Origin: an uncultured Pseudomonadales bacterium
GTDB lineage: Bacteria; Pseudomonadota; Gammaproteobacteria; Pseudomonadales; Azotimanducaceae
DNA: 64,000 bases
NCBI GenBank assembly: GCA_958296025.1
Contig: OY282430.1
Span: 3,100,001-3,164,000, forward strand
Direction of reading: 5' to 3'
Below the pieces are notes generated by a model. The model saw only the letters and a list, made by a program, of their open reading frames with translations. It searched no databases and had not been told where the DNA came from. The position numbers and the translations under genes were made by a program. Shown in pieces: positions 22,464 to 27,079 of the stretch (positions are counted from its first letter, which is position 1; the number at the start of each line of letters is the position of its first letter).

Positions 22464-23624
22464 ATGGACACTGGCTTCGATTACAGCCAAGCTGGCTTTG
22501 CCATCCGCAACGACATAGCAACGGCGCACCGTGCGATCTGGCACAAGATCGGCGAGCCCGGAAACTGGTGGCGCGGGGCGGAGCGCAGGGCCATTGTGCG
22601 GGAGGCCCGCAATGCGCGGTCGTGCTCGGCCTGCAAGCAGCGCAAAGCATCCCTCTCACCCGAAGTTGCCTGTGCGCCCCACAATACAAGCAGCAATTTG
22701 TCGGATGCGGCCGCCGACGCGGTGCATCGCATAGCAACCGATCCCGCACGTCTGTCGAAACACTGGCTCGAGTCGCTGGAAGCGGACGGTCTGAGTGATG
22801 GCCACTACGTCGAACTGCTTGGGGTACTAGTGGCCGCCATCAGCATCGACGCCTTTCATCGCGCCTTGGGGTTGCCGCTTGAGCCCTTGCCCAAACCCGT
22901 TCCTGGTGAGCCAAACGGCTACCGCCCACCCGGTGCCCGCGATTCCGGCGCTTGGGTGCCTAGGGTGCAGCCGGAAGACGCCGGCGAGGCGGAGGCCGAC
23001 CTCTATCCAAGCAATGCGGTGCCCAACGTCATCTCCGCGATGAGCTTGGTGCCGGATGCGGTGCGGATGCAGCAGCAACTCGGCCGCGTTCACTATTTGC
23101 CGCTTCAGTCTGTGATGACGCCGAACGACAACGGCGGCCGGGCCATTTCCCGCCTGCAGATTGAGCTGCTGGCGGGGCGCGTTTCGTCGCTGAGCCAGTG
23201 CTTCTACTGAACCAGTGCACATGCGTTTATGCTCCGTGCGAGCAGCCAAACCAGCGGTGACGATGTTGACCTGACAGGCATCGTCACGGGGGGAGCCCTC
23301 AGCTGGGGAGCGCGAGGGGGAACCCCTCGCAAGAATGCAGTCGAAACCGGCATCGTCGGCGACAAGGTGCTTTTAGCCTTCGTAGAAACCGCCTTGGACG
23401 ATGACGCCCAGGCAACCGCTGCGACCAGAAACGCCGTCATCGAGACGCTCGGGGAAGCTGCGATGATCGATGCCGCCGCCGTCATCGCCCACTTTCAGCG
23501 CATGGTGCGCATTGCCGACGGCACCGGCATTCCGCTGGACACCTCCTTCGCCGTCCAGACGGCGGACATTCGTGAGGAGCTTGGCATCAACGATTATGGG
23601 AGAGCACCGCAAAACTCCGGGTAA
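22464..23624 (+). CDS. AhpD-like two-domain protein, probable selenoprotein (in-frame UGA = Sec249)
   Basis: Codons 1-248 and 250-386 are in one frame, interrupted only by TGA at 23208-23210. The protein resembles AhpD/carboxymuconolactone-decarboxylase peroxidases. The first half has RGAERRAIVREARNARSCSA with CxxC at C54/C57. The second half has ELLAGRVSSLSQCFY, then UGA, then TSAHAFMLRASSQTSG. The UGA falls exactly on the second cysteine of the AhpD core CxxCxxxH (C246-F-Y-U249-T-S-A-H253). Family-like sequence continues to VIAHFQRMVRIADGTGIPLD near the end. A SECIS-like hairpin follows. In the family this pair reduces peroxide through a disulfide (or selenenylsulfide). The alternative is a Cys-to-stop mutation. 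Shine-Dalgarno GGAG lies about 10 nt upstream. Selenocysteine genes selA-D are not in the window. Confidence 0.75.
23222..23256 (+). promoter_or_regulatory. candidate bacterial SECIS element
   Basis: Just after the UGA the mRNA can fold into one hairpin. The top stem is UGCUC (23230-23234) with GAGCA (23240-23244). The loop is CGUGC (23235-23239). An internal loop (A23229 against 23245-23247) separates it from GUUU (23225-23228) paired with AAAC (23248-23251). A two-base bulge (23252-23253) is followed by GC/GC and a U-G pair. The loop contains GU near its top and begins 25 nt after the UGA, within the range described for bacterial SECIS elements. Pairing was done by eye; no energy was computed. 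Confidence 0.6.
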
Positions 23625-26722: not shown

Positions 26723-27079
26723 TGGTGGAGGCGGCGGGAGTCGAACCCGCGTCCGTAGGCTCGCCGCAATCGGCTCTACATGCTTAGGCACGTCCATTGA
26801 TTTAACCGCAAGCGGCCCGACGGCCAGGGCGCTTTTGGCGAGCCCGGAAAAGTTTGACGCAACCGCCGCCGGGCGTCGGCGACTGCGCGATCCTGCTGTC
26901 CTTGCCGCCGGCTTCTTCCCGCAGGAAAGGAATGGCCGGCGTTAGCAGCGACTAGGCTGCTAGTGCGTAGTTGTCTTCTTCGGCAACTATTTGGTTCGCA
27001 GCGATTGTTTAGCGAGAGCCGCCGCCCTCTCGGCATGCACCTTTTGCTTTGATGCCGACGTCGAGACCGTATCGCCCCC
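26723..27079 (-). ncRNA. ssrA: transfer-messenger RNA (tmRNA)
   Basis: Rescues stalled ribosomes by adding a degradation tag. On the minus strand the RNA starts GGGGGCGATACGGTCTCGAC at 27079 and ends GGTTCGACTCCCGCCGCCTC + CACCA at 26723. The first seven bases GGGGGCG pair with CGCCUCC before ACCA to form the acceptor stem (one G-U). The T-arm GGTTCGACTCC is clear. The tag frame, with resume codon GCG at 26997-26999, reads ANQIVAEEDNYALAA and ends in TAG at 26952-26954. The ALAA end is typical of gammaproteobacteria. Length is 357 nt. smpB is not next to it. Confidence 0.95.

Follow-up and report, generated by a model that had tools for sequence, protein, structure and literature searches.

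An in-frame UGA in an AhpD-related gene of an uncultured Pseudomonadales bacterium: a probable selenoprotein of the NF041238 family

The stretch of 64,000 nucleotides analyzed here (the window), from the genome of an uncultured Pseudomonadales bacterium, contains an AhpD-like gene with a TGA inside its reading frame, which raises the question of whether this codon is a lesion, the end of a shorter protein or a site of selenocysteine (Sec) insertion. One frame of 386 codons was found on the plus strand by translation, running from the ATG at 22464 to the TAA at 23622–23624, and the TGA, codon 249, was its sole internal stop. An earlier note, made from the DNA letters only, had described this TGA as the only interruption of the frame and had placed it at the second cysteine position of the AhpD motif, and both observations were borne out, since the codon occupies the second redox position of C-F-Y-U-T-S-A-H.

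22464–23624, plus strand: AhpD-related gene of family NF041238, very probably encoding a selenoprotein of 386 residues with Sec249
23208–23210, plus strand: UGA predicted to be read as selenocysteine (Sec249), from the translation and the alignment of relatives
23199–23222, plus strand: active-site motif C246-F-Y-U249-T-S-A-H253, from the translation and the alignment

Ordinary gene callers would end the product of such a recoded gene at residue 248, and this premature call would lose the presumed catalytic Sec and the remainder of the active-site domain. When the protein was read with Sec at the TGA, it matched the NCBIfam model NF041238 “AhpD_rel_CFYUT” (alkylhydroperoxidase-related (seleno)protein) with 442 bits over model positions 1–355 of 357, the curated cut-off being 175 bits. 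The CFYUT motif of this family was present as C246-F-Y-U249-T250, its UGA falling on the second redox position. The partial match to TIGR01926 (34.8 bits) fell below the cut-off of 81.8, the score against Pfam CMD PF02627 (12.9 bits, gathering score 23) indicated a distant relative only, and no match to NF041047 was obtained in the family profile search.

At the sequence level the NF041238 family dates back to 2005, when four Sec sequences, with CxxU as their motif and a SECIS predicted, were described as “hypothetical protein 1” in the selenoproteome of the Sargasso Sea (PMC1088965), and a 2026 review lists it under the name “AhpD-related protein (hypothetical protein 1, Sargasso Sea metagenome)” with the motif CxxU (PMC13188914). 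Given that description, the curated model and the recent listing, this kind of protein is already known, in agreement with the claim of the earlier note that AhpD-like proteins are among the known selenoprotein families, and the window gene is a new member. The full-length match, CFYUT, CxxU with UGA and a SECIS-like hairpin with a loop G were all shared with the family, from which nothing of substance differs; identity to the other aligned members was 32–54%. Other AhpD-like selenoprotein families (NF041047, TIGR01926-type and PF02627-type) share CxxU in the AhpD/CMD core and are kept separate from NF041238 in the review (PMC13188914). In the literature consulted, no enzymatic evidence or biochemistry was found for the NF041238 family.

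Relatives were obtained from draws of the same order and of the same taxonomic family. The gene was present in 17 of 391 genomes of the order, in 19 copies that all contained a single internal TGA, and in 39 of the 61 genomes drawn from the taxonomic family, with at most three copies per genome in the latter. In the taxonomic-family draw nearly every match over the cut-off contained one internal TGA; the exceptions were a gene that also had a TAG and a gene in two pieces, of which the N-terminal one stops before the site. Several family genomes, e.g., G1103, G1105, G1112 and G1102, carried two or three copies of this type of selenoprotein gene, and one copy in G1102 appeared to be split between its two halves. 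Class- and phylum-wide draws gave no further member above the NF041238 cut-off, as expected of a patchy family, no relative was carried on plasmid records, and the contig search added one distant fragment only, of alphaproteobacterial origin (L017).

The window gene, 18 full-length copies from the same order and the fragment L017 were aligned (n = 20). TGA was observed at the Sec249 codon in all 20 sequences, which came from many genera and were open on both sides, and C246, Y248 and H253 were equally invariant. Neither the draw of the order nor that of the taxonomic family yielded a Cys form (TGC/TGT). The comparison of this column with homologues had been proposed in the earlier note; it returned Sec (UGA) in every aligned member and Cys in the 28 of 28 AhpD/peroxidase-related matches of the class outside the family that had a readable motif. 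One rival reading is a pseudogene, a Cys-type AhpD gene in which the TGA arose by nonsense mutation or is an error of sequencing. This reading would need only a single chance stop and is compatible with the window sequence taken alone, but it was rejected on the conserved TGA and is extremely improbable, given the lack of TGC/TGT members in the draws and the constrained hairpin codons described below. In particular, an error of sequencing is very unlikely to have recurred at one codon across independent genomes, and the relatives exclude a chance hit on this codon, for which the earlier note had also seen no reason.

It could also be proposed that two proteins are made, a 248-residue N-terminal one ending at the TGA and a second one initiated at the ATG at 23229, which opens an ORF of 131 residues. 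Such an arrangement would split the CxxU motif and H253, though the residues on either side of the TGA are invariant; the downstream ATG is not universal, being CTG, TTT, GCG or TCG in several relatives; and the curated NF041238 model spans the site. The two-gene reading was rejected on these grounds and retains hardly any probability.

The reading of the TGA as Sec calls for a decoding machinery, and the earlier note had proposed a search of the genome for it. All four genes, selA, selB, selC and selD, were present in the source genome (3.92 Mb, one contig). The tRNA-Sec gene (selC; anticodon tca, 76.6 bits) was located at C1:1658954-1659042 and adjoined selB (402 bits) and selA (511 bits), the three forming a cluster on the minus strand that spans C1:1658954-1662262. 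A selD gene (263 bits) was found about 3 kb from this cluster, within a frame of 818 codons. It makes up the end of that frame (L020, G000:C1:1654872-1655771 plus the part upstream), whose preceding part resembles an FAD/NAD(P)-dependent oxidoreductase, so that the two appear to be fused.

Furthermore, selB was detected in 16 of the 16 gene-carrying genomes listed in the selB draw, against 55 of 383 across the order; the 17th gene-carrying genome of the order (G1094) lies outside that listing and has a tRNA-Sec. Four carriers fall outside the main family, and most belong to that one family, so the co-occurrence events are not independent and the association of selB with the gene is partly phylogenetic. 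In one genome, G757, the AhpD selenoprotein gene was found directly upstream of selA, selB and tRNA-Sec (L076, G757:C321:378-5332).

Bacterial SECIS elements are stem-loops lying just downstream of the UGA, with a small apical loop that contains a G (PMC1088965). A hairpin of this kind was delimited in the window gene:

23230–23244, plus strand: SECIS-like hairpin UGCUC-CGUGC-GAGCA, from codon constraint and RNAalifold

Its stem starts 20 nt past the UGA codon and its loop, CGUGC, includes a G. In the 20 sequences, codons 8–11 past the UGA read CTC CGT Gnn AGY with almost no exceptions. Taking expected counts from the codon usage of each gene, Leu was encoded by CTC in 19 of 20 cases (4.2 expected), Arg by CGT in 16 of 19 (3.1 expected) and Ser by AGY in 20 of 20 (8.4 expected). 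The residue at +10 varied (Ala, Val, Leu, Gly, Glu) with a third base G in 19 of 20 sequences; in the exception, L054, the third base was A and its partner T, so that the pair was kept. The same 5-bp hairpin was obtained with RNAalifold; 97% of its cells were paired, and sliding the stem gave poor pairing. One double change, CG to UA, was seen in one sequence, and the covariation score did not exceed that of column shuffles. Formal covariation support is therefore thin, and the hairpin is better supported by the codon constraint. Folding of the single sequence of 71 nt around the UGA (23200–23270) revealed no unusual stability (z +1.38). On the sequence evidence, the conserved hairpin fits a bacterial SECIS.

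The NF041238 match, the sel genes, the conserved TGA column and the constraint on the hairpin all supported the Sec assignment of the earlier note, and the gene can be taken, with little doubt as far as sequence comparison goes, as encoding an AhpD-related selenoprotein of family NF041238. The SelA, SelB, SelC and SelD of the bacterium itself would decode the UGA at 23208–23210 as selenocysteine, directed by the hairpin at 23230–23244. The window was also scanned for other read-through frames, and no convincing second selenoprotein was found.

Two probable AhpD-like halves were distinguished in the protein:

22464–22931, plus strand: N-terminal AhpD-like domain with CxxC, predicted from the AlphaFold model, Foldseek and a weak resemblance of its profile to that of the C-terminal half
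22623–22634, plus strand: CSAC motif, C54/C57, from the alignment
22980–23621, plus strand: C-terminal AhpD/peroxidase-related domain, approximately residues 173–386, from hmmsearch, the partial TIGR01926 match and the fold search
23163–23165, plus strand: Glu234, invariant, with the spacing to the motif of Glu74 in YP_296737.1

The C-terminal domain was aligned by hmmsearch to the solved AhpD-type structures 6k40, 3c1l, 2oyo and 2prr. For the N-terminal half, no significant match among solved structures was obtained by sequence-profile search. Modeled alone, this half reached an AlphaFold pLDDT of 91.4, and its first 22 Foldseek matches were all AhpD/CMD proteins, with E-values of at least 0.065 and large rmsd. 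Comparison of the profiles of the two halves was weak (E 0.012, probability 3.7%), with the CxxC in register with the CxxU. The full-length model (pLDDT 89.9) matched AhpD proteins first and then Sestrin2. The models and the profile comparison together suggested that the protein is likely a single-chain fusion of two AhpD folds, CxxC first and CxxU second. The earlier note had correctly pointed to the N-terminal CxxC and had considered the combination unusual; it is instead a trait of the family, since C54 and C57 were Cys in 19 of the 19 sequences covering the region, together with H73. An invariant CxxC and CxxU in one chain offers a concrete, testable lead on function.

Among known systems, the peroxidase-related AhpD proteins (TIGR01926; 6k40, 2prr, 3c1l, 2oyo) align with the C-terminal half and have an equally spaced E...CxYC...H relay, although these have Cys in place of Sec and a single AhpD domain. 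E234, C246, Y248, U249 and H253 stood at AhpD spacing and were invariant in 20 of 20 sequences, the E-12-C, CxYU and +4 H intervals being equal to those of Glu74/Cys86/Tyr88/Cys89/His93 in YP_296737.1 (PMC4674687). Sestrins and several bacterial proteins have been described as fused AhpD pairs (PMC11429811), and two AhpD-like domains per chain would be shared with them (PMC4674687, PMC11429811). Sestrin2 (9lvj) aligned with the full model over 382 columns (TMq 0.44, TMt 0.53), a weak match with E 0.38 and rmsd 12.7. Sestrin differs from the window protein in that its active Cys lies in the N-terminal domain, CxxC and CxxU are absent, and there is a DDYDY hinge. No match to the sestrin Pfam model was obtained up to E = 1 and DDYDY was absent from the translation; the protein was rejected as a sestrin by sequence.

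By analogy with AhpD, E234, Y248 and H253 may act as the proton relay that activates Sec249, which would attack a peroxide or an oxidized partner thiol; C246 would resolve the product as a selenenylsulfide, to be re-reduced by a thiol system, possibly with the N-terminal CxxC handing on electrons. A peroxide/disulfide redox mechanism of this type, with Sec as the attacking residue, is the course that we moderately favor. A further, rather speculative proposal, for which the chances appear low, is that the chain comprises an AhpD “heterodimer” in a sestrin-like layout, the CxxC dithiol domain being the built-in reductant of the CxxU selenol domain in a self-recycling selenoperoxidase; if true, it could be a model for sestrin-like fusions.

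The main role of the selenoprotein might instead be something other than peroxide reduction, such as that of a protein-disulfide or peroxiredoxin reductase or some other AhpD/CMD chemistry. AhpD itself reduces AhpC (PMC11429811), the superfamily includes other chemistries, the debrominase Bmp8 being a weak fold match, and in one relative (L062) the gene is followed immediately by a peroxiredoxin-like frame that has a UxxC motif. Nevertheless, the proton-relay residues that are typical of AhpD-type peroxidases do not vary, and we regard such a role as a serious possibility that falls short of being probable. The frame in L062 (900–1500, minus strand, directly downstream of the AhpD gene) is peroxiredoxin/ResA-like with an in-frame TGA in UxxC (SVDWUPFC), and it is probably a second selenoprotein beside the first.

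Additionally, the surroundings of the gene were inspected. No conserved gene neighborhood was found in the relatives beyond the gene itself. In the window, an acyl-CoA dehydrogenase gene lies upstream and cysD and cysNC lie downstream, neighbors that give no hint of a redox partner or substrate. Directly after cysNC, a tmRNA gene with the tag AEEDNYALAA was identified at 26723–27079 on the minus strand.
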